Below are positions 4,622 through 24,138 of a DNA stretch of 36,273 nt, piece after piece (the first letter of the stretch is position 1; every line of letters begins with the position of its first letter). Source of the DNA: Chloroflexota bacterium (GTDB lineage Bacteria > Chloroflexota > UBA6077); the NCBI GenBank assembly GCA_021806765.1, contig JAJZQR010000014.1, forward strand, positions 1 to 36,273, read 5' to 3'. The notes beneath the pieces are model-generated. The model was given only the letters and a program-made list of their open reading frames with translations, was not told the origin of the DNA and searched no databases. Both the position numbers and the translations under genes were made by a program.

Positions 4622-5452
4622 CTAGACCGACTTGCCGGCGAGGATCTGCTGATGGAGGACTCTTGTCTGCTCGGATGGTTGCATGTCAAGCACTGCCTCG
4701 AGCGTGTCCACACAGACATCGTACCAGTGTAGTGCCTGGCTTCGTTGGCCCAACCGGGCGTAACTGCGCATCAGACGCCGGTGAGCATCCTCGCGACACC
4801 GGTCCTTTTGCAGGATTTTGTGGCAGCGCATGATACAGCCTTCGTCATCACCCTGCTGCGACGCGTAGTCGGCAAGCTTGGTCAGCAACATCAGGTACTG
4901 GTCGTTCAGCTCTTCCCGACGTGCCAGTGTCCACTCCTCGTAGATGTCCTCCACCAGGTAGTCGTCGCGATATAGGTCTTCAGCAATCTCGTAATGGTGC
5001 GCGGCCATGGCCGGTTGCTGGCGTTCGATTCTGCGGCCGGAAGCGTAGTTCGACTGGAACTCATCGACGTCTACCCAGACTGGCGAACGCGAATGCAGAC
5101 GATAATTGCCGCCTTCCAAGACGATCCACTCGTGGGCCTCGCACCCCAAGGACTGGCGAAGGGCATGCAGCACCACGCGGAGTCCGTTGCTAGCCAACTC
5201 TGGGTCGCTCTCGGGCCACAGCAGGTCGAGGAGAACATCGCGAGGCACGGGCTGCCGGCGGGCGATGAGGTACTTGAGGAGAGTCTTGGCCTTGGCCCGA
5301 CGCCAATACTCTACTGGCTCGCCTGCCCGCAGAACCTCGAAGCGGCCGAAGCAATGAACCTGTACAAGTCGCCGGTCGTGGATAGGCACAATCATGCCCG
5401 CAGAAACGGCAGGGCTTGACACAGCCGGAATGCTCGTGACTTGAATCACCAT
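4622..5452 (-). CDS. SARP/BTAD-type transcriptional activator
   Basis: A 276-aa protein. I place the start at ATG 5452 (MVIQVTS) because AGGAG lies just upstream; an in-frame ATG at 5497 lacks this. Residues about 28-110 form an OmpR/PhoB-like winged-helix domain (VHCFGRFEVLRAGEP, KTLLKYLIARR, VPRDVLLDLLWP, LRVVLHALRQSLG, YRLHSRSPVWVDVDEF). Residues about 112-265 are a helical BTAD domain (DDYLVEDIYEEWTLARREEL, DRCREDAHRRLMRSYARLGQ). This is the minimal SARP architecture of DnrI or ActII-ORF4, without an ATPase extension. SARPs activate by binding 11-bp-spaced heptamers next to a -10 box. Such an array is present at 9829-9953, so the likely targets are the kinase operon and the VWA/eCIS operon. 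Confidence 0.88.
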   Translation of the reverse strand: MVIQVTSIPAVSSPAVSAGMIVPIHDRRLVQVHCFGRFEVLRAGEPVEYWRRAKAKTLLKYLIARRQPVPRDVLLDLLWPESDPELASNGLRVVLHALRQSLGCEAHEWIVLEGGNYRLHSRSPVWVDVDEFQSNYASGRRIERQQPAMAAHHYEIAEDLYRDDYLVEDIYEEWTLARREELNDQYLMLLTKLADYASQQGDDEGCIMRCHKILQKDRCREDAHRRLMRSYARLGQRSQALHWYDVCVDTLEAVLDMQPSEQTRVLHQQILAGKSV

Positions 5453-5637: not shown

Positions 5638-5666
5638 ATGCTACTATCTTGTTGCCGGACTGTCAA
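5638..5666 (-). promoter_or_regulatory. Sigma-70-like promoter of the SARP gene
   Basis: On the minus strand TTGACA (5666-5661) is followed after 17 bases by TAGCAT (5643-5638). The -35 is perfect and the -10 matches 4 of 6. It lies about 186 bases before the SARP start. I see no 11-bp heptamer repeats here, so basal rather than SARP-driven expression is likely. The remaining 5453-5771 gap shows no gene. Confidence 0.5.
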
Positions 5667-5771: not shown

Positions 5772-8108
5772 TCAGGCCTGTTGCACCGGTACCGGCACCT
5801 GCGCAGTGTCAGGTTTCTGTTGGCTGGGCGGACGAACAATGGGCAGCAGGCGGCGAACGAACGAGACAAACACCAGTAGAGCGGCCGCAAGGAAGGTGGC
5901 ATAGACAAGCACGCTCACCCACGTGAGGTTGGTAACGTCGGACACCATTCCCACTACCGGTCGCACGGCCGCGAAATAGGCCAGCAGCAGATACATGACG
6001 TTGACCAGCATATCGGAAGCGCTCTCCAGCGCTCGGTGTCTCGCCTCCGCCTGGGACTCACTACTCGCGGTCAGAAGGCCACTGAGTTGGTGGTCGATGG
6101 TGGGAACGATGACCCCTCGCGCAGCCGCCTGTACCTGGCGGCGGATGCTGAGGAAGATGGCCAGCACGCCCAGGGCGATTATTAGATTGGCCGCCCATTG
6201 TAGGGATGTGCCCCCAAGAAATCCCTCCTCGAACAGCGGCAAGGCCATCAACAGGGGTGCGGACAGGAGCAACCCGAGCGTAGCAGGAAAGACGCCGCTG
6301 GCCGCCCGCAGTTGTAATACCAGTAGGGCGACGATGAGCGCCACCACCAACGTGATAAGCACGGCCGCTACACGCTCGGAAACCAGCCCCTCCAGAACCC
6401 GCCGAAGAGGCGTGGCGATGATCGGATAGCCAACGATCAGGTAGAACACATTCACCAGGCCATCCGCGGCCCGGCCAACGATCCGGCCGCGTGCGGAGGG
6501 CTCCTCGGCACTCCGGACTCGCTTCAGGCCGCCGAGTGGCTGCTGCACCAGAGGCACGATGAACGCCCGCACCTCCGCCTGCACCTTTCCCCGTACAGCG
6601 AAGAAGGCCACGAGAACGGCCACGCCCACGGCAAGTTTGACCAGCCATTGCAGCGACAGCCCCCCATACACTTCCATGTCCACTATCGGCATTGAACTCA
6701 CAAGCCCCCAGCAAATGGCAAGCGCCAGCACCGCCACTATCGCCCCACTCTTGCGATACACCCTGAACACGATGGCCGCCGCAAACAGCAGGGTAAGAAC
6801 GGCCACGCCCGTGGCCGTCAGCGCCTCCGCCTGTCCCATCGTCAGAAGTCGCGCGATCGTCTCTACAAGCGGCTGGCCGAGAATGCGATAGATCAGAAAC
6901 AGGTAGGCAATGTTGACAATGACCTCGGCCGAGCCGACCGCGGCATTACGCCAGACCTTCACACGCAACGGCCCCTGTGAGTCGGTTCCGAGGCGCACGT
7001 AGGTGCGGGTGAACTGGTCCAGTCCGTCCAGCACTGCCCCAAGGAAGCGCGTGATGATACCGATGAGGTGCCATCGGATGCCCAGGAGCAGCCACACCTG
7101 GAGCAGGGCGGTGACCAGGGCGATGGGTGAGTTCAGAGTCAACTGGTGGAATATGGGTGCGCTTGAATTTGGCAGGCCGGAGAGCAGGGGAGCGACCACC
7201 GACAGCACAAGCAACGCAACGAGGTTGGGGGCGGCTGAGACGATGGCCTGCTTTGTCTCCAGCTGCATTCCTCGGGAGTGCTCCACAGCCTCTGTCAGGG
7301 CCGTACCGAACTCGTCTATGGTCGGGAAGCGGCCGTCGGGATCTTTCGATAGCGCCCGCATCACCACGTCCTCCACCGGACCTGGAACGCCCGGGTTCAG
7401 GTCGCGCAGGCGCGGTGGCGGCTCATTGACGTGCTGTTCCTTCAACTCGGCAGACGTTTCGCCCGAGAACGGTCGCCGCCCTGTTACGATCTCGTAGAAC
7501 ATTAATGCGAGCGAATACTGATCGCTGCGCCCATCCAGCGCCAAGCCTTGCCACTGCTCGGGCGACATGTAGGCGGGTGTGCCCGCGACGCGGTGGCCAT
7601 CCTCGCGAGCCTCGCCGGCGATACGGACGATGCCAAAATCCGATAGTAATGGCCAATCTACGCCGCCGAGCAGGATGTTAGCGGGCTTGACATCGAGGTG
7701 AATCAGACCAGCGTTGTGAGCATAATGGAGAGCGGAGGCCACCTGCACGGTGAGACGGGCCGCCGAGTTCAGGTCCATCATACCACCCGTCTCTTTGAGC
7801 CGGTCTTTCAGTGTGCCACCCGGCGCGTAGCGCATCGCGATGTAGGGCGCGTCGTTCTCTCCGCCGAAGTGGTGCACCTCGATGATGTTCGGATGATGCA
7901 GCGCAGCGATGTTGGTGGCCTCGGCGTGGAAGCGCTGGCGGAATGCAGGGTCCTGCGCCAGGCGCGCGGACAGGACCTTGATGGCTACAATCGTGTCCAA
8001 CGACCGGGCGTACGCCGTGAAGACGGTGGCCATTCCGCCCTGGGCGACACGCTCTCTGATCTCGTACTCTCCGCCCCACAGCTGCTGTCCCTGCAGCTCA
8101 ACAGCCAT
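5772..8108 (-). CDS. Membrane Ser/Thr protein kinase (Hanks type) with 12-TM repeat domain
   Basis: A 778-aa protein. ATG 8108 is chosen because AGGAGG lies 8 bases upstream; the alternative GTG at 8114 is too close. Residues about 15-275 form a bacterial Hanks-type kinase. They include the glycine loop VAQGGMATVF, VAIK (Lys44), HLDVKPANIL (Asp139), DFG (157-159) and SPE. HLD replaces HRD, so it is a non-RD kinase and may not need activation-loop phosphorylation. Residues 290-775 hold about twelve hydrophobic segments in three related units, each containing a 'VN(V/I)xYL' helix. No PASTA or other extracellular sensor is seen. It follows the 8126-9739 gene by 17 bases. Likely substrates are the FHA proteins' partners, by analogy with PpkA of type VI secretion. 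Confidence 0.9.
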   Translation of the reverse strand: MAVELQGQQLWGGEYEIRERVAQGGMATVFTAYARSLDTIVAIKVLSARLAQDPAFRQRFHAEATNIAALHHPNIIEVHHFGGENDAPYIAMRYAPGGTLKDRLKETGGMMDLNSAARLTVQVASALHYAHNAGLIHLDVKPANILLGGVDWPLLSDFGIVRIAGEAREDGHRVAGTPAYMSPEQWQGLALDGRSDQYSLALMFYEIVTGRRPFSGETSAELKEQHVNEPPPRLRDLNPGVPGPVEDVVMRALSKDPDGRFPTIDEFGTALTEAVEHSRGMQLETKQAIVSAAPNLVALLVLSVVAPLLSGLPNSSAPIFHQLTLNSPIALVTALLQVWLLLGIRWHLIGIITRFLGAVLDGLDQFTRTYVRLGTDSQGPLRVKVWRNAAVGSAEVIVNIAYLFLIYRILGQPLVETIARLLTMGQAEALTATGVAVLTLLFAAAIVFRVYRKSGAIVAVLALAICWGLVSSMPIVDMEVYGGLSLQWLVKLAVGVAVLVAFFAVRGKVQAEVRAFIVPLVQQPLGGLKRVRSAEEPSARGRIVGRAADGLVNVFYLIVGYPIIATPLRRVLEGLVSERVAAVLITLVVALIVALLVLQLRAASGVFPATLGLLLSAPLLMALPLFEEGFLGGTSLQWAANLIIALGVLAIFLSIRRQVQAAARGVIVPTIDHQLSGLLTASSESQAEARHRALESASDMLVNVMYLLLAYFAAVRPVVGMVSDVTNLTWVSVLVYATFLAAALLVFVSFVRRLLPIVRPPSQQKPDTAQVPVPVQQA

Positions 8109-8125
8109 TTCCACCGCCTCCTAGC

Positions 8126-9739
8126 TCAGCCACCGTTCTGAGTTGTATCGGAACCCGGCTCACACTCATCATGGACAACTGTCTGATCCATCTCGCTCGG
8201 TGACGCTGACACGGTGCGCTCGGCCTCTCCCGACAGCCGGAGCTCAGGCGTCGCGGGCGTAGCCGGCGAAGTGGTTCGTCGAGCGAAAGTCACCTCAGAC
8301 CAGGTAGTTCGCTCCGCTGGCTTCTCTTCCGCATTCACCGGTGGCTTGGTCCCGATAGGCGCTACCACAGGCGGCGTTCCCGCGGGCATCCCAGTCCCGA
8401 AGCGTAGCTTGGACCATTGGGTATGTGACCTGTTCCCCTGTTCAGGAGCAGCCACGGCGATCTGATCCAGCTCGGTCGGCGGCCGATCCAAGGCTGACTC
8501 GGGCTCGACCGCCACTGATTTCGGGTGCTCGGGCTCCAACTGAGCTTCCAGCGGGGGGGCTGGCGTCTCGTCCTGTTGGTCAAGCGCGGGAACTGGCGTC
8601 TCCTCCTGTTGATCAAGTACCGGCGCGGAGATCGCGGCCATTTCGCCGCCCGCCGGCGTCAGCTCTGGCTCCTGTGCCGGCCCGCCCGGGGCCTCAACCG
8701 GCTGCGGCTCGTCCGCTACGGACCCCGCTTCTACAGGCGGCGGCTCTTCGACCAAGGGCTCCGCCTCTACCGATCGCGAGCCCGACGGGCCGGCGATAGT
8801 GGCATCGATCTGCCAATCCGCTGCGGCCGCGGGCGGAAGCTCGAGATGCACAAGACCGTCCTCAGGAGATGGGGAAGCGGACCCGAGCGCTACGTCCGCA
8901 GCGGGGGACGGCTCCGCCAGGGTCTCCTCGGCAGAGACAACCGACGGAGCTGCCATTGTGGCCTCGGCCGCCGCAGCTGGCGGACTCGCGGCCAGGGTTA
9001 CTTCGGCCGCTACGGCCATTGCCTCCGCGGCCCCGGCATTCTGCGCCGCCACTGTGGCTTCAGCCGGGCGCGACCGGGCTGGCGTGACCGCAGCGCTCGC
9101 GGCCGGTCTTGGTATGGCCGGTGCGGTCTTTGGCGTCTCGTAGCCCGCAGTCGGCACCACCTGCTCCAACCCCGCCCAGACCAGCTGTTCAATCAGTGGA
9201 CGGCTGGCGGCATACAGGCGCAGGAGCATCAGCAAGGCTACGAGGAAGACGAGCACCACTATTCCGGCGTCGACGTAGGACTTCCGTGCGTAGGCAGCGC
9301 CGACTGTTACCAGAGGGGGTCTGAGAAGGCTCTGCACAATCAGCACAAGTGCAAGGTTGAAGAGGCCGAGAGCGAGGCTGGCCCCCAACCGGGGCAACTC
9401 GCGCCCGTCGCGCCGGGAACTCGGCACCGTGTCTCTCTTGACACCGGCAAGCATTGCACCGACGGTCTGGCCAAGCAGTCTACCGATTCGGACGCGTCCC
9501 CAGATGATCACAATGCACAATACTAACGTGGCCAAGAGCCACACCAGATCCACGAGGGAAACCTGGCCGCCCAGAAGCCGGAGACTCCGATCGAAGTCGC
9601 GCCCATATTCCGTCACCGGCGGCAGCAGATATCCCAGGCCTATCGCCACCACCAGAGCGACAAAACCCGGGAGATAAGCACGCCAATGGACAGATTTGGG
9701 TTGGTCGGGACCGGCCTGGCTATCGGCGACGCCTTCCAT
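8126..9739 (-). CDS. Membrane protein with long Ala/Pro/Glu-rich tail, first gene of kinase operon
   Basis: A 537-aa protein. I choose ATG 9739 (MEGVADSQ), which has GGAGG 8 bases upstream. Four hydrophobic segments lie at about residues 19-40, 60-82, 115-137 and 150-170. The arrangement VDLVWLLATLVL, then RVRIGRLLGQTVGAML, then LALGLFNLALVL recalls the repeat unit in the kinase's membrane half. Residues about 195-535 are low complexity (Ala, Pro, Glu, Val) with repeats such as LDQQEETPVPA and LDQQDETPAPP, probably a flexible cytoplasmic region. Many Thr residues (for example TPAP, SEVTFARRTT) could be phospho-sites for the adjacent kinase; this is inference. I recognise no family. Confidence 0.75.
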   Translation of the reverse strand: MEGVADSQAGPDQPKSVHWRAYLPGFVALVVAIGLGYLLPPVTEYGRDFDRSLRLLGGQVSLVDLVWLLATLVLCIVIIWGRVRIGRLLGQTVGAMLAGVKRDTVPSSRRDGRELPRLGASLALGLFNLALVLIVQSLLRPPLVTVGAAYARKSYVDAGIVVLVFLVALLMLLRLYAASRPLIEQLVWAGLEQVVPTAGYETPKTAPAIPRPAASAAVTPARSRPAEATVAAQNAGAAEAMAVAAEVTLAASPPAAAAEATMAAPSVVSAEETLAEPSPAADVALGSASPSPEDGLVHLELPPAAAADWQIDATIAGPSGSRSVEAEPLVEEPPPVEAGSVADEPQPVEAPGGPAQEPELTPAGGEMAAISAPVLDQQEETPVPALDQQDETPAPPLEAQLEPEHPKSVAVEPESALDRPPTELDQIAVAAPEQGNRSHTQWSKLRFGTGMPAGTPPVVAPIGTKPPVNAEEKPAERTTWSEVTFARRTTSPATPATPELRLSGEAERTVSASPSEMDQTVVHDECEPGSDTTQNGG

Positions 9740-9828: not shown

Positions 9829-9871
9829 ATTGTAGCAATCCTCTATTACCGCGGAATTACACGACCGTCAC
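9829..9871 (-). promoter_or_regulatory. Candidate SARP-activated promoter of the kinase operon
   Basis: Read on the minus strand, heptamers GTGACGG (9871-9865), GTAATTC (9860-9854) and GTAATAG (9849-9843) are spaced exactly 11 bp. The third ends 8 bases before TACAAT (9834-9829), a 5-of-6 match to the -10 consensus. No good -35 exists, as expected where an activator replaces it. The spacing matches the published rule for Streptomyces SARP sites. The first gene starts about 90 bases downstream. Confidence 0.65.
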
Positions 9872-9899
9872 AATCGAAGGCCATTATTGCGCCGCAACT

Positions 9900-9953
9900 G
9901 TGATTTCCTGGTAACGCCGTGGTGATTTCGGTGTGACGGACATGTAGTATCGT
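9900..9953 (+). promoter_or_regulatory. Candidate SARP-activated promoter of the VWA-FHA/eCIS operon
   Basis: Heptamers GTGATTT (9900), GTAACGC (9911), GTGATTT (9922) and GTGACGG (9933) recur every 11 bases. The last ends 8 bases before TATCGT (9948-9953), a 4-of-6 -10 match. All four fit GTRAY, as do the three in the divergent promoter. The VWA-FHA start codon is 43 bases downstream. A fifth GT-starting heptamer at 9944 overlaps the -10 and does not fit the consensus. Confidence 0.65.
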
Positions 9954-9996: not shown

Positions 9997-11841
9997 ATGC
10001 GGAATAAGTGGATGTCCGGCTGCTTGGCGGCACTAATGGTCGCGGCTTCACTCGTCTCGATTGTGCAGGCAGCCGACCTCGGCCTTACCCTGCATCAGAT
10101 CGATTCCTCGCAGTTCCCCAAGGTTCGGGTGTACGTCACCGTGGCGGATAGCCAGGGACTGCCGATCACGGGCCTGGACGCGCAGGCTTTCGCCCTGGCA
10201 GAGGATGGCAAACAGATCAAGGATTTCCGCGTCGAGCCCGTTGTCGACAGTCAGGAATCTATCGCCGTCGCACTCAACATAGACGTTAGCGGAAGTATGA
10301 ACGACGGCGGCAATCTGGACGCAGCTAAGCAGGCCGCCACTGCCTTCGTCGAGACGATGGGTGCAAAAGACAGCGTGGCCGTGGTCAGCTTCGCCGACGA
10401 CGTGAAGGTAGTGCAGGGGTTCACCGCCGACAAGGGCGCTCTCACCGCCGGTGTGCAGAAGTTGGCAGCCAAAGGCGACACTTCGCTTTTCGACGCCGTG
10501 ACGCAGTCGGCCCAGCTGATGGGTGCTCTTCCACAGCTGCGCAAGGTCATCCTCGTACTCACGGACGGCGAAGATACTAAGAGCAAGCAATCGTTGGACG
10601 ATGCCGTGGCCGCAGCCAACGCGGCCAAGGCGGTGGTACTGGCGGTCGGTCTGGGGCCGGGGGTCAAGAAAGACATCCTGGACAAGCTGGCCGGCTCAAC
10701 TACCGGCCAGGCCGTGTATGTGGACAAGCCTGACCAGTTGCGCCAGGTATTCCTTTCCTTTGGTGATCAGCTACGCCGGCAATACGTTCTCCAATACACA
10801 TCTGCGTTGCCGGGCGACGATAAGCAGCACGAAGTTGTGGTGCAATCTGCCTATCGCGGACAAAAGGCGGAGACCAAAGGCACCTTCGTTGCCAAGCGCA
10901 CGCCTTTGGCCCTTGACGTCAAGGGCATCGCCAACGCCACCAAGGTCACCGGTGCCCAGAAGGTTGAGGTGGCAGTCACCGGCGGCGCGGCCAAGACGGT
11001 GGAACTGCTGGTAGACGACCAGCAGCGAGCAGTGGCTGAAACGGCTCCTTACGTCCTGCAGTGGGATACGGCCAAAGAGAATCCCGGAATGCACCGTGTC
11101 ATCGTGCGAGCCAAGGACGCGGCAGGTGTGGCGACCGACAAGGAGTTCGTGGTCGAGGTTGCCGGAGCAGCACAGCCGGCCCCTGCCGTCGCCTCAACAC
11201 CGGTCAAGGCGAATACGGCTCCTCCGGCGGCACAGGACAACACTATGCTCCTGGCGCTGGGGGTTCTAGTGGCACTGGGTCTCGTCGGTTTCCTGGTATG
11301 GTTCTTCGCTCTGCGCAAGCGCCCGCGAGTGCCCGCCATGCCAAAGATCGAGGCGGCGCCAAAAGCGGAAATGGACGACCGCACGGAAAACATAGACTAC
11401 CGTATCCCGGCAAAAGCGGTGGCACCGGCAGCAGCGGCCGCGCCGGTGATGGCGGCCGACGCCGGCGCCACGGTGGTTGGCGCCATCCCGAGCGGCGACG
11501 CGGGCGCAACCGTCATCAGCGAGGCGCCTGCCCCGCCACCACCGCCACCGAAAGCCCGGCTGCAGGTCTCGCAGCAGGGGACGCAGCGCGTCGTAATCGT
11601 CGCCAAAGCGGAGGCCGTCCTGGGTCGGCTGCCAGAGAACGAAGTGATCATCAACGACCCGCTTGCCTCGCGTAAGCACGCCCGGATCATACGCGAGGAA
11701 ATGGAGTTCTGGGTCGAGGACCTGGGCAGTAAGAACGGCACCTCTGTGAACGGCCGGCAGATTACCCGACAGAAGCTGGCAAGCAACGACCAGATCAAGA
11801 TTGGTGACGCCACCATAACGTTCACGTTGGACGAGGGTTAG
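9997..11841 (+). CDS. Membrane-anchored VWA domain protein with cytoplasmic FHA domain
   Basis: A 614-aa protein. ATG 9997 (MRNKWMSG) has GAGGAGGGG upstream. A signal peptide (about 1-26, ending VQA) is followed by a short beta region. A von Willebrand A domain occupies about 88-260, with the MIDAS motif DVSGS (96-100) and VILVLTDGEDT. A bacterial Ig-like module spans about 290-395, a membrane segment 417-440, and an FHA domain about 520-614 with GR, SRKHA and NGTSVNG. The VWA part is therefore outside and the FHA part inside. FHA domains bind phosphothreonine, so it could relay kinase state. It is divergent from the kinase operon behind a shared SARP-like operator. The operon downstream is now interrupted by an IS element. 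Confidence 0.9.
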   Translation: MRNKWMSGCLAALMVAASLVSIVQAADLGLTLHQIDSSQFPKVRVYVTVADSQGLPITGLDAQAFALAEDGKQIKDFRVEPVVDSQESIAVALNIDVSGSMNDGGNLDAAKQAATAFVETMGAKDSVAVVSFADDVKVVQGFTADKGALTAGVQKLAAKGDTSLFDAVTQSAQLMGALPQLRKVILVLTDGEDTKSKQSLDDAVAAANAAKAVVLAVGLGPGVKKDILDKLAGSTTGQAVYVDKPDQLRQVFLSFGDQLRRQYVLQYTSALPGDDKQHEVVVQSAYRGQKAETKGTFVAKRTPLALDVKGIANATKVTGAQKVEVAVTGGAAKTVELLVDDQQRAVAETAPYVLQWDTAKENPGMHRVIVRAKDAAGVATDKEFVVEVAGAAQPAPAVASTPVKANTAPPAAQDNTMLLALGVLVALGLVGFLVWFFALRKRPRVPAMPKIEAAPKAEMDDRTENIDYRIPAKAVAPAAAAAPVMAADAGATVVGAIPSGDAGATVISEAPAPPPPPPKARLQVSQQGTQRVVIVAKAEAVLGRLPENEVIINDPLASRKHARIIREEMEFWVEDLGSKNGTSVNGRQITRQKLASNDQIKIGDATITFTLDEG

Positions 11842-11876: not shown

Positions 11877-13461
11877 TACTACTTTGGCGTGATAGGTGCA
11901 GGCATCCTTCATCGTAGTGGAGGGTGCAGCTGTGCAGATCGTGATCGGCGAGATTGACCATACCGTGATTCAAAGATTCGTGGAGCAGTTCCGCTCGGTG
12001 TTCCCGCGGGAGTGTGGCGTCGAGAACTGCACTCACTACTTGCTCGGTCTGGTCTCGGACCTGCCGAGGAAGAATATCCACCAGATGGCCGAGGTCCTTC
12101 CCGATGCCACACTGGAGCAGATGCAGAACTTCCTGGCGGATACTCCCTGGGATGCCCAAGCGTTGCAGGCCAGGCTTGTTGAGATGATGGTGGCCGAGGG
12201 CTTCACCGACCCCAAACAGGGGGTGCTGTGCTTCGATGACACAGGGCTGCCCAAGCAGGGCAAGCATTCGGTCGGGGTCCAGCGGCAATACTGCGGGGAA
12301 CTGGGCAAGAGGGCCAACTGCCAGGTAGTAGTCACCGCTGTATACGCCGATCCTCGCTGGCACTGGCCCCTTGGGACCCGGCTGTATCTGCCTGAGTCGT
12401 GGATCAAGGACCCCGAGCGGTGCAAGGCGGCGCGAGTTCCCGACGGGATTGCCTTTGCGACCAAGCCTGCCCTCGCGCTGGGGTTGCTGGACCGAGCGCG
12501 GCGGGCAGGGGTTGCTCACCTGCTCAGCACCGCCGATGCCGGTTACGGGGATGTGCCCAACTTCTTGAAGGGGTTGGAGGAACGGCAGGAGCCGTACATC
12601 GTCCAGGTGAGCAAGGTCTTTGGGGTTCGGCTGCCTGACGAAGTGGCCGAAGCGGCGCAGCATCCTATCCCGCCCACTAACCGGCCTGGGCGCAAGCCGA
12701 GGGGGCGGGGGTGTCCAGGAGGAGTACCACGGCCGGGCGGGCTGGCCCCGGAAGCACCCGCATCCGGCCCAGGTAGCCCCCATGCACACGGCTAAGGAGC
12801 TGACCGAGGCGTTGCCGGTGGCCAAGTGGGCGACGGTAGCGGTGAGCGAGCGAGGTGAGCATCCCATCTCCTATCAGACCTGCTGGATCCGGGTGCACCG
12901 CGCCGTTGGGGACGAAACGGGCCCTGAGGGCTGGTTGATCGGGGAACTGCCGTTGCCGGGCGAGGAGGGGGAGCCTCGCTGGTACTTCGCCTGGAAGTTG
13001 GACCAGTTCTCCCTGGCGGAGCAGCTGCAGTTCGCCCACTGGCGGTGGACCATCGAACGGTTCCACCAGGATGGCAAGCAACTGCTGGGATTGGGGGACT
13101 ACCAGGGGCGCTTGTGGCCGGGTTTTCACCGGCATCTGGCACTGATCTGTCTCATGTGGTGTTGCGCCCTCGTGGAGGCCGTCACCAAAGCCCGGATGGG
13201 GACAGCCAGCGCGATGCGGCCATTGTCCAACGAGGTGCCGGCCACCGCCACGCTTGGTGCCGATGCCCAAGCCGACACGACCAGCGGGATCCCGTTGGCT
13301 TTTCCCCCCTATGGCCAGTCTCGTCCAGATCCGTCGCGACCTGTTAGCCCAGTTGCCCATCACTATTCGCTGCCCTTGCTGCCAGACAATGGTGCCGGTT
13401 CCAACCCTGGCAGCCGCCATCTCGCGTGCGCGGTCACCAACCGGATGACGCCAAAGTAGTA
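11877..13461 (+). mobile_element. IS701-family insertion sequence
   Basis: The ends are inverted repeats: TACTACTTTGGCGTGAT (11877-11893) and ATGACGCCAAAGTAGTA (13445-13461) match at 16 of 17 positions. The 1585-bp length is normal for IS701. Flanking bases ATAA (left) and CTAA (right) may be a decayed 4-bp target duplication. The element separates the VWA-FHA gene from the eCIS genes and carries a broken transposase. Confidence 0.85.
11932..13448 (+). pseudogene. IS701-type DDE transposase, two frameshifts
   Basis: The likely start is GTG 11932, preceded by GGAGGG. The IS701 hallmark [20 protein letters not shown] and a second acidic motif (TADAGYG) lie in frame 1. HWRWTIERFHQDGKQLLGLGDY, carrying the third catalytic residue (Glu), lies in frame 2. 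A C-terminal piece (MASLVQIRRDLLAQLP, CPCC) lies in frame 3. The first shift is near the G-runs at about 12700-12713 and the second near TTTTCCCCCC at about 13300-13308. All three DDE residues survive, but no intact protein can be read. Both shifts sit in homopolymers, so sequencing error is a real alternative to decay. Confidence 0.85.
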
Positions 13462-13505: not shown

Positions 13506-13742
13506 ATGGGTCGCTACCGGACATTCGTGGTCAGGATATGGGTAGACACGAGTGAGGACTCTCCGCGCGGGCACATCCAACAGGTGGCCACCGGTCGCAC
13601 GGCCTACTTCCGTGATACGAACAAGATGGTGCGCTTTATCAACGAGCAACTGGGCCCCTTAGCCTTGCCGTCTGGCAATCCAAGCGCCATCCCAACCCAC
13701 AACATCAGAGCGGCGGCGGGAGGCGAGACTGATGATCGGTGA
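13506..13742 (+). CDS. Small conserved-looking eCIS-associated protein
   Basis: A 78-aa protein. ATG 13506 (MGRYRTFVVRIWVD) has GGGAGGG about seven bases upstream; ATG 13500 is too close. The core reads as a compact beta-beta-alpha unit: RTFVVRIWVDTSED, GHIQQVATGRTAYFRDTNKMVRFINEQL. No catalytic residues are apparent. I recall similar small proteins beginning with this pattern at the head of eCIS clusters, but cannot name a family. It overlaps the tail terminator gene by 11 bases, which suggests translational coupling. It is the first intact gene after the insertion sequence, and I see no clear promoter between the IS end and its start. Confidence 0.7.
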   Translation: MGRYRTFVVRIWVDTSEDSPRGHIQQVATGRTAYFRDTNKMVRFINEQLGPLALPSGNPSAIPTHNIRAAAGGETDDR

Positions 13743-14637
13743 CGTCGATCGGACACTGCGTTCCCTGCTTGAACAATCGCTTGGGCTGGTAGAGCAAGAG
13801 ATTTACTTCGACCGCCCAGACGAACGTTTTGTGCAGGCGCTGACGGTACCACGCGCCCTCTGCCTCTACTTGTATGACGTCAGGGAGAACCGCGAATTCC
13901 GCAACGGCGACTTCAACATTGAGCGCCGTGGTGATGGCACGGCGACAGTGCGTCCACCCGCCATGTACTTCGACCTCACCTATCTCGTGACGGCCTGGGC
14001 GAACAGCCGGGAGGTGGAGCACGAGTTGCTTGGCGAGGCGCTCAAGCTGCTGCTCGGCCACCCCATGCTCGAGGGAGAGCTTCTGCAAGGCAGTCTGCGG
14101 GAACAGGGGCTGGCGATTCCGGCCTCGGTCGGACCTCCGAACGGTTGGATGGACCCTGTTGCTCTCTGGTCTGGCCTGGGTGGAGTGCGACCGGCGCTGT
14201 TCTACAGCGTGACGGTACCGGTGCAGCCCTTCGCGGCCGAGGAGCGGCGCCTGGTCAGCGCGCGCCTATTGCGCACCGCGGAGAAAGACCGCGCCGAGCC
14301 CAAGCCGACGGAGGGTCGGCAACCCGAGGAAGCGGTGGAGTTCGCCGGCAAGGTACGAAGCGCACGTGGCAGTGGCCCCGTGGGAGGGGCGCAAGTCTCA
14401 CTACGGGAAGTGAGCCGTTCCGCCGGTGTAGACGAGGGCGGCATCTATCGCCTCGGTTGGGTCAAACCTGGCCGCTACACACTGATCGTCTCCGCGCCTG
14501 GCTATCGCGAGGCGCGCCGGCAGATTCTCGTCAGCGGCGAGGCGGGGTTGGCCCATTCCGGTAGCCCATATGACGTCGAGCTGGAGGCCGAGCCGTTGGA
14601 ACCAGCCGCTCAGTCTGCGCGACAAGGCAGGAGGTAG
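13732..14637 (+). CDS. eCIS tail terminator (Pvc16/Afp16-like, DUF4255) with C-terminal carboxypeptidase-regulatory-like domain
   Basis: A 301-aa protein. Residues 1-185 match the DUF4255 family. The N-terminus IGDVDRTLRSLLEQSL is followed by beta strands with YLYDVRENREFRN, the turn RPPAMYFDLTYLVTAW, the helix LLGEALKLLLGHP, and WSGLGGVRPALFYSVTVPV. Family members cap the sheath-tube end of contractile particles. Residues about 203-272 (EFAGKVRSARGSGPVGGAQV, GGIYRLGWVKPGRYTLIVSA, PGYREARRQI) look like a carboxypeptidase-regulatory-type beta-sandwich. Typical Pvc16 proteins are shorter and may lack it. It overlaps the preceding gene and precedes the sheath, the common eCIS order. Confidence 0.88.
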   Translation: MIGDVDRTLRSLLEQSLGLVEQEIYFDRPDERFVQALTVPRALCLYLYDVRENREFRNGDFNIERRGDGTATVRPPAMYFDLTYLVTAWANSREVEHELLGEALKLLLGHPMLEGELLQGSLREQGLAIPASVGPPNGWMDPVALWSGLGGVRPALFYSVTVPVQPFAAEERRLVSARLLRTAEKDRAEPKPTEGRQPEEAVEFAGKVRSARGSGPVGGAQVSLREVSRSAGVDEGGIYRLGWVKPGRYTLIVSAPGYREARRQILVSGEAGLAHSGSPYDVELEAEPLEPAAQSARQGRR

Positions 14638-14716
14638 CAGCTTCGCTGAAGGCGCTGAGCCCGCCGCGAGATCTTCGCCCGAAATAGACACTCTAAGAAA
14701 AGGGGGATGCGACTGA

Positions 14717-16378
14717 ATGGCCACAAGCTATCAGACGCCAGGTGTCTACGTAGAGGAGATGCCGCCTGGCAGTCGACCTATCGAAGGGGTCGGCACCTCG
14801 GTCGCCGCGTTCATAGGCTTCGCGGAGATGGGTCCACGCAACAAGCTAACGCTGATCACAAACTGGTCGCAGTTTGTCGACAAGTTCGGTAGCTTCCATG
14901 AGGGGTACTACCTCGCCTACTCCGTCTATGGCTACTTTGCCAACGGCGGAGGCACTTGCTATGTGGTGAACATCGCCCCGTCGCTCGCACCGCAGGCGCT
15001 GCTGCCGGGAGACAGCGCAGGCAAAGCATCCATCGACGCATACGCCGTGCGGCAGGGTCTAAAACTGGCAGGAGTGACTCTCGAAATCTCATACGCCGAC
15101 GGCGCGCAGGCCCTGCCCGCGGCCAGCCCGACCGAGCAGCCGGCAGCCGAAGAGAGCAAGCCAGCCGACGATAGCGCCGCTGGTGCCGGTCCCGCCAAAG
15201 GCAGGACAATCAGCAGGGCCGCGGAGCCGATCAAATCACCCGACCCGACCACGCCCTTCACCATCACCATCAAGCGCGGCAGTACTGTTCTCGAGTCGTT
15301 CGCAAGCGTGTCAATGGACCGCGGTGCGCGCAACTACGTCGAGACCATGGTTAACGGCGCATCCCAGTTCATATGGTTGAACGTTCCCCAGGCCAAGGGG
15401 CCGCTGGCGCCCGCGCCGAAAGCAGGCACTTTCGAGCTCAAGGCTCCCACGACCACGGCGCTCGCTGTGAGCACCAAGGACTTCATGGGAAAGGTGGAGG
15501 ACCGTTCCGGCATCGAGGGACTGGAGGCGATCGACGACATAACCATCGTCTGCGCCCCCGACCTGATGGGCGCCTTCAGGCGAGGGCTAATCGGCGAGGA
15601 ATCGCTGGTTGGCATCCAGAAACTGATGCTTACCCACTGCGAGAACATGCAGGACCGCGTGGCCATCCTCGATACGCCGCCGGACCTGGATCCGCAGGAG
15701 ATGATCGCATGGCGCGAGAAGACCATGATCGACTCGGCCTACGGGGCCCTCTACTATCCATGGATCAAGGTGCTTGACCCGCTGGATCCCACCGGCAAGC
15801 GCACCTTGACCGTCCCCCCGTCCGGCCACATGGCCGGCATATGGGCGCGGACCGACGCCGAGCGCGGTGTGCACAAGGCTCCGGCCAACGAGGTCGTGCG
15901 TGGCGCGATCGACGTGGCGCAGCAGGTCACTCAGGGTGAGCAGGGTCTCCTGAATCCCCGCGGCGTGAACTGCATCCGCACCTTCGGCACGCGCGGCCTC
16001 CGCGTATGGGGCGCCCGCACGTTGTCCAGCGATGTGGCCTGGAAGTATGTGAACGTCCGCCGATTCTTCAACTACGTCGAAGAATCGATCAAGCAGGGTA
16101 CCCAGTGGGTCGTCTTCGAGCCGAACGACTTCGACCTCTGGCAGCGCATCTCGCGGGATGTCAGCTCCTTCCTGATGCGCTCTTATCGTGACGGAGCTCT
16201 GTTCGGCGCAACGCCTGAGCAGGCATTTTACGTCAAATGCGACGAAGAGACCAATCCGCCCGAGACTATCGACGCCGGAATGGTCATCATCGAGCTTGGC
16301 TTGTGCCCGGTCAAGCCGGCCGAGTTCGTGGTCTTCCGCGTTACGCAACTGCCGACAGGCGGGGCGACCACGAGCTAG
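14717..16378 (+). CDS. Contractile tail sheath protein
   Basis: A 553-aa protein. The N-terminus TSYQTPGVYVEEMPPGSRPI with TSVAAFIGFAEMGP is the classic sheath signature. The C-terminal domain is equally typical: GIWARTDAERGVHKAPANEV, LNPRGVNCIRTFGTRGLRVW, GARTLSS, KYVNVRRFFNYVEESIKQG and FEPND. The sheath polymerises around the tube and contracts to drive injection. Residues about 128-180 are an Ala/Pro/Glu-rich linker. It is the only sheath gene here, while Pvc and Afp clusters have three, so one protein presumably builds the whole sheath. AGGGGG lies ten bases upstream of the chosen ATG. Confidence 0.97.
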   Translation: MATSYQTPGVYVEEMPPGSRPIEGVGTSVAAFIGFAEMGPRNKLTLITNWSQFVDKFGSFHEGYYLAYSVYGYFANGGGTCYVVNIAPSLAPQALLPGDSAGKASIDAYAVRQGLKLAGVTLEISYADGAQALPAASPTEQPAAEESKPADDSAAGAGPAKGRTISRAAEPIKSPDPTTPFTITIKRGSTVLESFASVSMDRGARNYVETMVNGASQFIWLNVPQAKGPLAPAPKAGTFELKAPTTTALAVSTKDFMGKVEDRSGIEGLEAIDDITIVCAPDLMGAFRRGLIGEESLVGIQKLMLTHCENMQDRVAILDTPPDLDPQEMIAWREKTMIDSAYGALYYPWIKVLDPLDPTGKRTLTVPPSGHMAGIWARTDAERGVHKAPANEVVRGAIDVAQQVTQGEQGLLNPRGVNCIRTFGTRGLRVWGARTLSSDVAWKYVNVRRFFNYVEESIKQGTQWVVFEPNDFDLWQRISRDVSSFLMRSYRDGALFGATPEQAFYVKCDEETNPPETIDAGMVIIELGLCPVKPAEFVVFRVTQLPTGGATTS

Positions 16379-16408
16379 GAAGCAGAACGTTAGAGAGGAC
16401 GAGATCAA

Positions 16409-16849
16409 ATGCCACCGAAAGATCCGCTGGCTAGTTACACCTTCTGTCTGGAGATCCAGGGACTCACTGAGGCCACGTTCCGAGAGGGCGCAGGCTTCGA
16501 TTCGGAAACAGAGGTTATTGAGTCGCGAGAGGTCGGGAAAGGCGGCGTGACCTACATCAAGAAGGTGCCGGGCGCGCTCAAGTGGTCAAACATCGTCTTG
16601 CGCCGTGGCATCACCGACTCGCTTGATCTCTGGAACTGGCGAAAGAAAGTCGTCAGTGGCGACATACAGGGCGCTCGGATGGATGGCTCGATCGTCATCT
16701 ATAACCCCAAGCTCCAGGAGGTAGCCCGCTACAACTTCGTTCGTGGCTGGCCCGCCAAGTGGAAGGGCGGCGATATGAACGCCACCGCCAACGAGGTGGT
16801 GCTCGAAGAGCTGGAGATCGCCCACGAGGGCCTGGACAGGGTGAAATGA
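16409..16849 (+). CDS. Inner tube protein 1 (T4 gp19-like)
   Basis: A 146-aa protein of the usual tube length. It has the typical ordered motifs: YTFCLEIQGLTEATFREGAG near the N-terminus, ESREVGKGGVTYIKKVPG, WSNIVLRRGITDSLDLWNW, ARYNFVRGWPAKWKGG and NEVVLEELEIAHEGLDRV. Such proteins form hexameric rings that stack into the injected tube. It follows the sheath by 30 bases and its stop overlaps the next ATG. A second paralogue at 19668 probably forms a baseplate-proximal tube layer. Confidence 0.96.
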   Translation: MPPKDPLASYTFCLEIQGLTEATFREGAGFDSETEVIESREVGKGGVTYIKKVPGALKWSNIVLRRGITDSLDLWNWRKKVVSGDIQGARMDGSIVIYNPKLQEVARYNFVRGWPAKWKGGDMNATANEVVLEELEIAHEGLDRVK

Positions 16850-17226
16850 GTCCACGTGCTGAGAGTCTGCAGACAGAGTTCGAGTTCACGCTGCCGAAGG
16901 GGTACGTGGACTCGGAGGGCAACCTCCATCGCAAGGGAACCATGCGTCTGGCTACGGCTATCGACGAGATTGCGCCGCTGCGCGATCCGCGAGTGCGCCA
17001 GAATCAGGCGTACCTCACGATCATTCTGCTGGCGCGCGTGATCACCAAACTCGGCACGACGTCCGACGTAAACCCGGGCGTCATCGAATGCCTCTTCTCG
17101 TCCGATCTGGCGTATTTGCAGGCGCTCTATCGCCGGATCAACGAGAACGCGAGCACCGCCATCACAGCTGCGTGCCCGGAATGCAGCCACGAGTTCGAGG
17201 TGGAGACCCTGGGCGTGGGGGAATAG
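16846..17226 (+). CDS. Tail assembly chaperone-like protein
   Basis: A 126-aa protein starting at an ATGA overlap with tube 1. It begins with LQTEFEFTLPKGYVDSEGNL and RKGTMRLATAIDEIAPLRDP, then helices (YLTIILLARVITKLG, VIECLFSSDLAYLQALYRRI). It ends with a CPECSHEFEVETLGVGE tail containing CxxC. This resembles phage tail assembly proteins found after the tube gene. Its terminal codons read GTG GGG GAA TAG. The next frame, in the -1 register, continues without an obvious start, which recalls the G/GT frameshift of phage chaperones. Function is inferred from position and pattern. Confidence 0.75.
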   Translation: MSPRAESLQTEFEFTLPKGYVDSEGNLHRKGTMRLATAIDEIAPLRDPRVRQNQAYLTIILLARVITKLGTTSDVNPGVIECLFSSDLAYLQALYRRINENASTAITAACPECSHEFEVETLGVGE

Positions 17227-17378
17227 TCGGCTACCCGCTTGAGCGCCTTTACGAGGAGGTAGCCTACATCGCCTACCACTTTCACTGGCCGATGGAGGAC
17301 ATCCTGGCCCTGGAGCACCAGGACCGCCAGCGCTGGGTTGACGAGATCGCCAAGATCAACCGCCAACTCAGCAGCTAG
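17181..17378 (+). CDS. DUF6760-like small protein, start uncertain (possible -1 frameshift product)
   Basis: The conserved part is GYPLERLYEEVAYIAYHFHW followed by PMEDILALEHQDRQRWVDEI and a short tail, about 50 aa. It matches the small protein seen after the chaperone in many eCIS clusters. The only ATG in frame (17181) lies inside the preceding gene, has no ribosome site, and would add a basic, glycine-rich arm (QPRVRGGDPGRGG) that does not look native. Expression may instead occur by -1 slippage on the GGGGG run at about 17216-17221, fusing it to the chaperone. The total length of 65 aa given here assumes the ATG. Confidence 0.6.
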   Translation: MQPRVRGGDPGRGGIVGYPLERLYEEVAYIAYHFHWPMEDILALEHQDRQRWVDEIAKINRQLSS

Positions 17379-17399
17379 AATCCCTTCCGGCCGGTGTAG

Positions 17400-17431
17400 C
17401 CGGAGTAGCACTGGCAGAAGCGCTACTCCGG
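17400..17431. other. Perfect 10-bp stem-loop inside the operon
   Basis: CCGGAGTAGC (17400-17409) and GCTACTCCGG (17422-17431) enclose a 12-base loop in the 129-base gap after the DUF6760-like frame. No T-run follows, so it is not a clear terminator. It could be an RNA processing or stability element that adjusts structural-gene ratios. Confidence 0.5.
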
Positions 17432-17507
17432 CAACACCGTCGCGTTCCAGCGCAACGAGCCGTGCTGCGCACGCGCCTGACTGTGACAGTAACCGAGGAG
17501 GAATGCC

Positions 17508-18212
17508 ATGGCGCGCGATACCATCGTCATCCGTAAGCCGGCAAGAGAGGCCAAACTGAGACTCGGCAGCCGCAACGAGGTGACCGTGGACCTGAGCCTG
17601 GCACGGCCCTGGTTCGACGCCCCGAGCTACGGCACGCGCATCCGCACGATCACGGGACAAAGCCGGCGGGGTGCCGACTTCCAGCCCAGTGGCGAGCGAT
17701 CGCTCACATCCCTCACGGAGGGTAAGGCCGCCGTCTTCGATACGCACAAGGACTGTTACGCACGCACCGACAGCATCGGCGCCGGCCTCGGCTGCTACGT
17801 GGTGGTCACCTCCGGCGACCTCAAGCTGACCTACGCCAATCTGAAGCGCGGGAGCGCCCGATCGGGCGCGGTCAGGGTTGGCGACCGCATCGGCCTGGCC
17901 GGCAATACCGGCCACTGCCTGGAGGAAGACGGAAAGCACTTTGTCCATTTTGAGGTCAACGACGGCGCGACGCCGCGCGAGCCCGGCGCCTTCGCCCAAC
18001 CGCTGGAGCTGCTGCTTCAGATAGAAGGCAGGCCCGTGGGCAAACCGGTGGAGGTTCCGGAGGGCGTCCTTCAGATCGCCGGATTCACCATCGGCGAGTG
18101 GTCCATCTCCCCCCGCGACTTCCAGCCGCGCACCTTCGAACTGGAGGTGCTGCTCAAGCAGGGGGTGCGCGTGCGTGCGTCGGCCAAACAGCGGGTCAAC
18201 GTGATCCGCTGA
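17508..18212 (+). CDS. Degenerate M23 peptidase-fold protein
   Basis: A 234-aa cytoplasmic-type protein; the start has GAGGAGG upstream. Residues about 45-150 follow the LytM/M23 fold: RRGADFQPSG corresponds to HxGxD, TYANL to YxHL, VGDRIGLAGNTG to the glycine-rich turn, and HFVHFEV to HLHFEV. Compared with active enzymes, the first zinc His is Arg53, the YxHL His is Asn111, and the first His of HxH is Phe145. Only Asp57 and His147 remain. It should therefore be catalytically dead. A C-terminal beta extension follows (residues 160-234). Its place between chaperone and DUF4157 genes suggests a structural or scaffolding role in the particle; this is inference. Confidence 0.75.
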   Translation: MARDTIVIRKPAREAKLRLGSRNEVTVDLSLARPWFDAPSYGTRIRTITGQSRRGADFQPSGERSLTSLTEGKAAVFDTHKDCYARTDSIGAGLGCYVVVTSGDLKLTYANLKRGSARSGAVRVGDRIGLAGNTGHCLEEDGKHFVHFEVNDGATPREPGAFAQPLELLLQIEGRPVGKPVEVPEGVLQIAGFTIGEWSISPRDFQPRTFELEVLLKQGVRVRASAKQRVNVIR

Positions 18213-18247
18213 TAACAGCAGGTTGCTCCGCGAGCGAGGTTCCTTGT

Positions 18248-19207
18248 ATGCCAAACACAAGAGCCACCACAGGTAGCGTGATAGGGGCCGCCGGCAGGGA
18301 AGCCCTGTCATTGGCACGCTCGCTATCCTTGGCGGCAGATGTGAGCCTGCGTCGGCAGCCGCCGCTGCTCGAGCGAACCGGTCGTGCGACCGCCCCCCCG
18401 AGTCTCTCCCGCGGGGCGGATTTGACGCCGGTATCGGCGCAAGCGCTCGGCTCAGCAGACGGCGAGGGCACTCCGCTCACACGCGCGCAGCGAGAAGCCA
18501 TGGAGCAAGTAGTCGGTGGGCCGCTTCGGAACGCACGCCTGCACACAGGCCCGGGGGCCGCGCACACGGCCGCGGTCCTCGAGGCCGACGCCTTCACCGT
18601 GGGCAACGACATCTTCTTCGCCGAAGGAAAGTACGACCCTTCCAGCGTGCGGGGGCAGGCCCTCCTGGCACATGAGCTAACCCACGTGCGCCAGCAGACC
18701 GTGGGCGAAATCCGCGGCTACGAGAGCGAGGGGTCGGGCGAGGCGGAGGCCGAAGCCTCGGAGCGAGTCGTGCTGGCCGGCCGTCTCTCCATGGGGGAGC
18801 TGTCGGTCGGTCGCTATGTGCGCAACTACGGCACCGTCGATGGCCGGCCGCTCTCGGCCGCGGACTCGTCGCGTCTCGACGCCATCTCTATCAAGGCACT
18901 CGCCGTCTGCCGCGACGTCCTCGGCTCCGAACTGGGCAGCCTGGTCAACGAGAGGATCGACCGGCTGCAGCTGAACGTGAGCCTCGACCTCACCGGTATG
19001 ACCGACGACCATGCCGCTCAGGAATGGGGCCAGGCCGTGGCCGAGCAGGTCCGGGCAGAAGTGATCAGCCAGACCGTCCCTCCGCCACCGCGAGCGGTCA
19101 TCGCCCGCAGCAAGAACGACGACCTGCAGCCTGTGGCGGACGAAGAGACCATATGCCGGACGGCTCGTTCGACACCGATCGGGCGCAGGCGTTCGTCGAC
19201 GAGATGA
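18248..19207 (+). CDS. DUF4157 (eCIS core domain) protein with HELTH motif
   Basis: A 319-aa protein starting at ATG 18248. Residues about 78-150 form the DUF4157 domain, a marker of eCIS loci: LTRAQREAMEQVVGGPLRNA, LHTGPGAAHTA, EADAFTVGNDIFFAEGKY and LLAHELTHVRQQ. HELTH (142-146) is a zincin HExxH motif. DUF4157 proteins are thought to be cargo, assembly factors or metalloproteases. The mid region (EAEAEASERV, VRNYGTVDGRPLSAADSSRL) is unknown. The final 18 residues (from ICRTARSTPIGRR) are Arg/Ser-rich and look like out-of-frame GC-rich DNA. They overlap the next small frame, so the true C-terminus may be the 19153 frame joined by a frameshift. Confidence 0.88.
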   Translation: MPNTRATTGSVIGAAGREALSLARSLSLAADVSLRRQPPLLERTGRATAPPSLSRGADLTPVSAQALGSADGEGTPLTRAQREAMEQVVGGPLRNARLHTGPGAAHTAAVLEADAFTVGNDIFFAEGKYDPSSVRGQALLAHELTHVRQQTVGEIRGYESEGSGEAEAEASERVVLAGRLSMGELSVGRYVRNYGTVDGRPLSAADSSRLDAISIKALAVCRDVLGSELGSLVNERIDRLQLNVSLDLTGMTDDHAAQEWGQAVAEQVRAEVISQTVPPPPRAVIARSKNDDLQPVADEETICRTARSTPIGRRRSSTR

Positions 19208-19308
19208 TGGGCAGGGCGAGACAGGAGTCCATCAGGCTGCGCACCATCCCGGTCACGCGTGACGCCCCGGCCGAGACGTCCGATGGCGTGCCGCTGGAGG
19301 CGCCATGA
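19153..19308 (+). CDS. Small protein or displaced C-terminus of the DUF4157 protein
   Basis: A 51-aa frame starting at ATG 19153 (MPDGSFDTDRAQAFVDEMMG), with GAAGAGA just upstream. It overlaps the end of the DUF4157 gene by 55 bases. Its composition (acidic helix QAFVDEMMGRARQESIRL, then IPVTRDAPAETSDG) looks coding. Its stop overlaps the next ATG as ATGA. Either it is an independent, translationally coupled gene, or it is the real end of the DUF4157 protein after an indel. I do not recognise a family. Confidence 0.5.
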   Translation: MPDGSFDTDRAQAFVDEMMGRARQESIRLRTIPVTRDAPAETSDGVPLEAP

Positions 19309-19619
19309 CAGTTCGCATCGACGAGCTGATATGTAACGTGACGGTGACGCTGGGCGCGCCGGCACTGCCGCTGACGGAGTTTCCGCCGGCCGAGGCGCCC
19401 CTCGACGAGACGCCGTCCAGGCCGCCGCTGGAGCAGGCGCTGTTGGGCACGTCCCCGCTGGCGGAAGCGGGAAACGTGATGGGCGGCATGGCTGGCCGCC
19501 AGAACGTCGCGCCCGCCACCGGCGGGCTGTTGCCGCCGAACGTCGACGCCAATGAACTGGCCAATCGCGTGTACCGTCTCATGCGCGACGAACTGGCGAT
19601 AGCCCGCGAGAGAGAGTGA
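19305..19619 (+). CDS. Small eCIS protein with the 'LANRVYRLMRDELAIARERE' tail
   Basis: A 104-aa protein in ATGA overlap with the preceding frame. It begins with beta-like residues (TVRIDELICNVTVTLGAPAL), then a proline-rich and Gly/Ala middle. It ends in an amphipathic helix, NANELANR-type (residues about 79-104: ANELANRVYRLMRDELAIAR, then ERE). The same kind of helix ends the 1091-aa protein downstream (DALSRQIYAIIKQRLAVERE). A shared terminal helix suggests a common docking role, perhaps for loading or assembly in the tube or baseplate. No family name is assigned. Confidence 0.65.
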   Translation: MTVRIDELICNVTVTLGAPALPLTEFPPAEAPLDETPSRPPLEQALLGTSPLAEAGNVMGGMAGRQNVAPATGGLLPPNVDANELANRVYRLMRDELAIARERE

Positions 19620-19667
19620 ACGCGACAGATGGCCCGGCGGCACGTCATGTCGGGAGGTTGAGATAGT

Positions 19668-20117
19668 ATGCCAAACGGTTCGGGAAAGACAGACCCATTC
19701 GTGACGACAAGGTTCCACGTTGAGATCAAGGGTGTCACCGAGGGCCTCTTCACCGAATGCTCCGGCCTGTCCGTGGAGACCGAGGTGATGGAGTACGCGG
19801 AGGGGGGGCTCAACGACCACGTCCATAAGCTGCCGGTCCGGACCCGCTTCTCCAACATCATCCTGCGGCGCGGGTGGGTCGAGTCGGACGAGCTGTGGAA
19901 GTGGTACAAGAACATTGTCGCCGGCACGATAGAATTCCGGCCGGTATCCGTAATCATGTACAAGTACAAGGGCGAGAACGCCGGCCAGGAAGTGGCCCGC
20001 TGGAACCTCCAGGACGCCTATCCGGTGAAGTGGTCGGGCCCCAATTTCTCCTCTACCAGTAATGAGATAGCGGTGGAGACGCTGGAGCTGGCCCATGCGG
20101 GCTGGCAGCGCCAATAG
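19668..20117 (+). CDS. Inner tube protein 2 (T4 gp19-like, Pvc5-like)
   Basis: A 149-aa paralogue of tube 1, preceded by GGGAGG. Motifs are TTRFHVEIKGVTEGLFTECS, LSVETEVMEYAEGGLNDHVH, LPVRTRFSNIILRRGW, WNLQDAYPVKWSGPNF and NEIAVETLELAHAGW. Contractile particles commonly encode a second tube-type protein that joins the main tube to the spike hub. Its position before the LysM and VgrG-like genes fits that role. It is distinct enough in sequence from tube 1 not to be a recent duplicate. Confidence 0.94.
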   Translation: MPNGSGKTDPFVTTRFHVEIKGVTEGLFTECSGLSVETEVMEYAEGGLNDHVHKLPVRTRFSNIILRRGWVESDELWKWYKNIVAGTIEFRPVSVIMYKYKGENAGQEVARWNLQDAYPVKWSGPNFSSTSNEIAVETLELAHAGWQRQ

Positions 20118-20152
20118 GAACAGTGAGGAAGACCCCCTCGGGGGAGTGAGCG

Positions 20153-23428: not shown

Positions 23429-23446
23429 CTTAGGAAAGCGAGGCAG

Positions 23447-24121: not shown

Positions 24122-24138
24122 AGAAACAGGAGACTGCT

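Follow-up and report, generated by a model that had tools for sequence, protein, structure and literature searches.

Divergent promoters with putative SARP-type operators at a contractile injection system locus of a Chloroflexota bacterium

The SARP operators described in Streptomyces (AfsR, Aur1PR4, FdmR1, DnrI, ActII-ORF4 and PapR2) consist of heptameric direct repeats with an 11-bp period in promoters whose -35 element is weak; for AfsR, Aur1PR4 and FdmR1 the last repeat lies 8 bp before the -10 box (PMC10936776, PMC7040171, PMC10972967). The account in PMC10936776 gives this distance for published SARP promoters, together with steps of 11 or 22 bp, and places AfsR between the DNA and sigma region 4 at the afsS promoter, which has a poor -35. 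PimR is thought to bind as one monomer per heptamer and requires two heptamers (PMC5930380). A 2024 review describes SARPs as antibiotic-cluster activators exclusive to actinobacteria and links AfsR to phosphorylation by serine/threonine kinases (PMC10972967). Here, we analysed a 36,273-nt stretch (hereafter the window) of contig JAJZQR010000014.1 from an uncultured Chloroflexota bacterium (assembly GCA_021806765.1), in which positions 9829-9953 separate two divergent operons. Judging from its sequence and from a predicted protein fold, we consider it likely that this interval holds divergent, activator-dependent promoters without -35 elements and with SARP-type operators, through which the product of a nearby gene, SARP1, would co-activate a membrane protein-kinase operon and an operon encoding a VWA-FHA protein and an extracellular contractile injection system (eCIS).

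The putative plus-strand operator of the rightward promoter (9900..9939) comprises four heptamers in 11-bp steps, namely GTGATTT at 9900, GTAACGC at 9911, GTGATTT at 9922 and GTGACGG at 9933, and the -10-like hexamer of the VWA-FHA promoter, TATCGT (9948..9953), begins after a further 8 nt, with no TTGACA-like hexamer at 17 bp. On the minus strand, the putative operator of the leftward promoter (9843..9871) comprises three heptamers with the same step (GTGACGG at 9871, GTAATTC at 9860 and GTAATAG at 9849), followed after 8 nt by TACAAT (9829..9834, read from 9834 to 9829), the -10-like hexamer of the membrane protein-kinase promoter. All seven heptamers, which begin with GTRAY, and both hexamers thus stand where an earlier note on this DNA had placed them, and the 11-bp period and 8-bp gap that the note gave as SARP geometry are indeed those published (PMC10936776). 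The probable start codons, read from the sequence, are ATG 9997 on the plus strand and ATG 9739 on the minus strand, each preceded by GGAGG and lying 43 and 89 nt, respectively, from its -10 box.

The array is confined to this interval. With at most one mismatch, the triple GTRAY-N6-GTRAY-N6-GTRAY occurs four times in the window (three of them exact), always at 9829-9953, whereas 100 dinucleotide shuffles contained 0.05 on average and never more than one. Each of the two promoters has one match to the composite GTNAY-N6-GTNAY-N10-TANNNT and the window has no other, so that the note's statement that no other such array is visible in the window holds for both patterns. A scan for sigma-70-like -35/-10 pairs returned no promoter-like match in window positions 9700-10050, nor in positions 13330-13640 of the related locus L142.

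To follow the arrays in relatives, a genome scan with a SARP1 alignment yielded 50 loci, of which L001-L004 are close orthologous loci by their neighbouring genes. L003 lies in draft genome G001 and L004 in G002, while L002 and L001 correspond to contigs of G003 and G004; three of these four genomes are labelled as metagenome-assembled. The intergenic regions of L002-L004 carry arrays with a slightly looser core, GTNAY; their proximal repeat is often GTTAC, GTTAT or GTCAC, and the core was therefore relaxed from GTRAY to GTNAY. A controlled test was then applied to seven upstream regions, six placed by gene and one, that of the G002 kinase, placed by pattern and then by orthology (56% identity over 751 residues). 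All seven contain the GTNAY composite, for a summed shuffle expectation of 0.0007. When the period (7-16) and the gap to the -10 box (3-14) were varied over 120 combinations, only 11 x 8 scored 7, with 11 x 10 and 16 x 3 scoring 1 and all others 0. The composite was found in none of 23 other upstream regions, those of SARP1, SARP2, PP2C, Pvc16, and distant VWA-FHA, kinase and SARP genes. The distant VWA-FHA genes (G013, G015, G019, G021 and G025) have no array of the same form upstream.

Ten promoters could be aligned in register: two each from the window (the discovery pair), G001, G003 and G002, and one each from G004 and G016. Every one has at least two GTNAY repeats in an 11-bp step and a TANNNT box after a gap of 8 bp, and in all ten the hexamer 17 bp before the -10 box is unlike TTGACA. 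The heptameric direct repeats with 11-bp period are thus found in the window and in relatives, the 8-bp spacing of the 3' repeat in both window promoters and in the seven regions tested in relatives, and a -35 element is poor or absent. Across nine promoters (without G016 and G015), the GT-AY positions have a pairwise identity of 0.77, as against 0.26-0.27 for the 40-bp flanks (0.25-0.32 within one promoter type); the identity of 1.00 at TA...T results from selection and carries no weight. The genes behind these promoters vary somewhat: the rightward first gene in G002 and G016 has an FHA domain at its end and is not a full VWA-FHA homologue, the leftward promoter of G003 faces SARP1 without an intervening kinase, and the G004 kinase promoter falls outside the comparison, beyond the contig end. 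In G002, the eCIS and kinase promoters lie on different contigs, far from contig ends, and both retain the layout. Conservation at orthologous loci, which the earlier note had proposed as a check, therefore held at the testable promoters of four genomes for heptamers, period and gap alike, provided that the core is read as GTNAY.

In the 234,380 bases of loci L125-L144, the composite has nine matches (G002 kinase, G002 eCIS, G004 VWA-FHA, two each in G003 and G001, one at the G016 gene that ends in FHA and one at a small gene of G015), all upstream of VWA-FHA/eCIS- or kinase-type genes; these loci were picked around such genes, and the count therefore describes placement inside loci rather than genome-wide rarity. 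The three-repeat pattern GTRAY-N6-GTRAY-N6-GTNAY occurs twice in the 5.6 Mb of G001, both times at the SARP1/eCIS locus, once in G003, also at the locus, four times in G002, of which one at the kinase promoter, and not at all in G004, whose VWA repeats are GTAAA, GTAAC and GTTAC. The G015 array (L130 11342-11384) reads GTTACCC/GTAACCA/GTAACGC in 11-bp steps, 8 bp before TAATGT; it overlaps the end of a SARP gene, is partly readable on the other strand and lies 63 bp ahead of the ATG of a small eCIS-linked gene. This gene, related to the small gene of the window via L127, is followed by an AAA-ATPase gene also found in the G001, G002 and G021 loci.

Further searches returned scattered observations. 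A de novo search for other heptamers gave one suggestive triplet, perhaps a diverged array, in G015 (L130 upstream of 10566): GATACCG/GTAACCG/GAAACCT lies upstream of a SARP2-clade gene, with an 8-bp gap to TACCTT. On the minus strand of L111 (~1490-1530) in G029, an array GTAACTGCCAG GTAATTGCCAG GTAATTG stands with an 8-bp gap to TATGCT, with no homologue of the window genes nearby. The loci of G014 (L102, L112, L118 and L120-L124) hold tandem repeats of GTGACGC type with an 11-bp unit that can be read on either strand (8 of 20 matches viewed); they resemble an expanded repeat family more than promoters. A sheath search gave 15 loci, in which SARP1 had no match; the composite matches among them came down to one sequence, shared by L149 and L150 and lacking a GTAAY repeat, which was dropped as chance. 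In the kinase paralogue loci L182-L186, four GTNAY pairs stand isolated and lack a TANNNT box 8 bp away, and a SARP search of viral contigs found no relative.

The most likely reader of the arrays at this locus is SARP1, a 276-aa protein encoded on the minus strand at 4622..5452. Its BTAD domain is matched by Pfam at 2.2e-23 (83.7 bits vs a cut-off of 22.1), whereas the match to Trans_reg_C (6.3e-5) falls under the curated cut-off. The predicted structure has its best matches in the SARP domain of AfsR and in EmbR. SARP1 thus shows the two features of SARP-family proteins, an N-terminal OmpR-type winged helix followed by BTAD, and domains and predicted fold bear out the note's description of 4622-5452 as a SARP-type gene. 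Among the homologues listed (at least 120), those carrying an organism name are Chloroflexota, and weaker genome matches include Actinomycetota and other phyla. SARP1 does not fit the restriction to actinobacteria given in the review (PMC10972967), which we treat as an outdated statement of distribution rather than a defining feature of SARPs.

Autoregulation of SARP1 was considered and set aside: no array was found in the stretches tested ahead of it in the window, G001, G002 or G004. In G003, an array lies about 420 bp ahead of the presumed SARP1 start with no long open reading frame (ORF) in between, and is read as a remnant because the best kinase match in this genome reaches only 40% and is no close orthologue. 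A sigma-70-like promoter without heptamers, TTGACA-N17-TAGCAT (5638..5666, minus strand), precedes SARP1 in the window, unlike the promoters of its proposed targets. Such a -35-bearing promoter was rejected as a general trait, the match being good in the window only, weak in G002 and absent from G001, G003 and G004.

SARP1 shares the predicted winged helix and BTAD fold with AfsR and EmbR, at about 22% identity; unlike AfsR, it lacks a NOD/TPR extension. EmbR carries an FHA domain, absent from SARP1, and is linked to the serine/threonine kinase PknH as a phosphorylation input. The window heptamers start with GTNA, as does the PapR2 heptamer GTCAGSS. They differ from Streptomyces SARP operators in their host phylum, in their heptamer (GTAAYGC) and in their proposed targets, a kinase operon and an eCIS operon instead of an antibiotic cluster. 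As for the note's phrase "outside Actinobacteria", the operator appears new, but the protein annotation is not entirely so, having a precedent in Geobacter GSU1771, called a SARP-family protein (PMC10599522). BTAD has been reported as an eCIS shell domain, a proposed regulator occasionally activated by kinases (Geller et al. 2021, PMC8213781), a statement repeated in PMC12961389; we found no operator or target promoter in the account of PMC8213781, and the word Chloroflexi is absent from its main text. We found no report of a SARP operator in Chloroflexota in the open literature searched. What appears to be new is thus the host phylum, the heptamer and the target of the operator, BTAD genes beside eCIS having already been reported.

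Other readers of the repeats have to be weighed. The DNA-binding fold is common to SARPs and to GlnR/PhoB-type regulators, GlnR having an OmpR-type DNA-binding domain. Another OmpR-family regulator might occupy the arrays, such as a GlnR- or PhoP/PhoB-type response regulator, both of which likewise bind 11-bp direct repeats, and the GlnR box of S. venezuelae, GTnAC-n6-GTnAC with 11-bp repeats, is near-identical to the motif (PMC10704036, Table 2). The core GTNA is common to the arrays and this box (GTnAC-n6-GTnAC/GAAAC), but the fifth base is C or T in the ten aligned promoters. GlnR is a global nitrogen regulator; neither a GTNAY 11-bp pair nor the GlnR a-b box was found in 19 glnA and ammonium-transporter (amt) loci (68,302 bases, G001-G004; some end at contig ends). 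The arrays, moreover, keep a fixed 8-bp gap to the -10 box. A phosphate-binding-protein family search gave four loci in three of the four genomes, of which three lack the pair and L190, below the family cut-off, has a pair without TANNNT at 8 bp. The two three-repeat arrays of G001 both lie at the SARP1/eCIS locus (two-repeat sites were outside this genome-wide count). No response-regulator gene was found among 29 window ORFs scanned with Pfam, GlnR-like genes not having been sought in the relatives' genomes. We regard a reader of this kind as unlikely. A second-clade SARP, SARP2, acting alone or with SARP1, is a quite improbable main reader. It is 39-44% identical to SARP1 and in relatives its gene belongs to the proposed target operon, where it separates VWA-FHA from Pvc16 in G001 and comes after VWA-FHA in G003 and G004 (L142 16117-16887, L127 3522-4268 and L144 1373-2119, which group with the SARPs of G015 and G021). 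The G015 eCIS locus has only a SARP2-clade protein, yet carries the GTTAC/GTAAC/GTAAC array described above, and SARP2-type proteins may on this ground be additional readers. Against this, arrays are present in the window, where SARP2 is missing (an insertion sequence, IS, lies at that position, and the window is part of a genome), and in G002, which has nothing SARP2-like (next best match 5.6e-15, a 1056-aa frame), while the VWA-FHA genes of G015 and G021 have no array upstream. Given the G015 array, located elsewhere in its eCIS locus, the distribution of SARP clades fails to point to SARP1 in particular. Chance or repeat expansion without a regulatory role finds some support in some genomes of the class, such as G014, whose GTNAY arrays resemble expanded tandem repeats; it is already contradicted by conservation amid near-random flanks, by the shuffle expectation and by the fixed gap, and we deem it scarcely tenable.

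Several points weigh against SARP1 acting through these operators. The base-contacting T88 and R92 of AfsR are replaced by V and A (V108 and A112 in ORF numbering), the SARP1 clade is not a starred fork, and SARP1 lacks an array in its own upstream stretches (those listed above). A search of the 50 related loci gave no case of three strict GTRAY repeats, the window alone having such a triple; in the seven regions, strict GTRAY retains the 11-bp pair in six and the full composite in two, because the proximal repeat departs from it. The relaxation to GTNAY, a core that the GlnR box of S. venezuelae has as well (PMC10704036), was made after the intergenic regions of L002-L004, five of the seven test regions, had been viewed; only the G004 VWA promoter and the -10 gaps of the G002 kinase and G016 are blind to this choice, and the last two promoters were first met via the repeat pattern rather than the gene. 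The SARP nearest the G016 array belongs to another clade, and the G015 locus, which has an array although the one SARP near the eCIS genes is of the second clade, leaves co-distribution unable to settle the identity of the reader. Taken with the geometry and its conservation, the SARP-operator interpretation nevertheless appears supported at the sequence level.

Rightward of the promoters, the gene order is VWA-FHA, IS, a small gene and then the eCIS genes, which begin with Pvc16-N and end with two FHA proteins. The VWA-FHA gene (9997..11841, plus strand) matches Pfam VWA_2 and FHA (on the longer ORF 9967-11841) and its start was picked by its ribosome-binding site. The IS element (11877..13461, plus strand) has inverted ends of 14 nt and two overlapping frames, the first of which matches a DDE_5 transposase; where it lies, past VWA-FHA, relatives G001, G003 and G004 carry SARP2. 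The small gene (13506..13739, plus strand, 78 aa) is homologous to small genes past VWA-FHA in L127, L142 and L144, and the eCIS genes (13732..34202, plus strand) encode, by Pfam, Pvc16-N, sheath, tube proteins, M23, eCIS core, baseplate, PAAR, gp25 and FHA proteins. Because the IS splits VWA-FHA from the eCIS genes and may uncouple them, relatives give better grounds than the window for array control of the entire eCIS operon; in G002 (L126), the array promoter precedes, on the same strand, the FHA-ended gene, eCIS core, AAA ATPase, Pvc16 and sheath. Leftward follow, all on the minus strand, a membrane protein without Pfam match (8126..9739), whose homologues lie ahead of the kinase in L142 and L125, a 780-aa serine/threonine protein kinase (5772..8114; Pfam Pkinase 1.2e-39) and SARP1. 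A PP2C phosphatase (34416..35309, minus strand; Pfam PP2C_2 5.1e-18) lies at the far end of the window, and its homologue adjoins SARP1 in L142, L128 and L129.

In each promoter, heptamers (consensus ~GTAAYGC, core GTNAY) on one DNA face, ending 8 bp before the -10 box, would replace the -35 element. We infer that SARP1 would bind two or more of them head to tail and, by analogy with AfsR as a docking site for sigma region 4, bring RNA polymerase to a promoter lacking a -35. Transcription would start just past the -10 boxes, and the kinase and VWA-FHA/eCIS operons would rise together. A phosphorylation input is suggested by the presence of kinase, PP2C and FHA genes, as for AfsR (PMC10972967), and it is speculative that these proteins gate SARP1 in this manner.

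We lean towards a broader proposal, in which the promoter grammar of SARPs (heptamers every 11 bp, a distance of 8 bp to the -10 box, no -35 element, adaptation to sigma) would operate unchanged outside Actinobacteria, with its own heptamer and two SARP clades, and a dedicated kinase-SARP-FHA-PP2C circuit would switch on a contractile injection system together with its own signalling operon. If true, this grammar would predate, or would have crossed, the split between Actinobacteria and Chloroflexota. A conserved operator with a fixed target set would give a sequence code for BTAD regulators lacking an assignment in Chloroflexota, as well as a comparison for deriving the rules of SARP DNA recognition, that is, which residues read which heptamer. 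It would also provide a candidate activator for an eCIS, open to testing.
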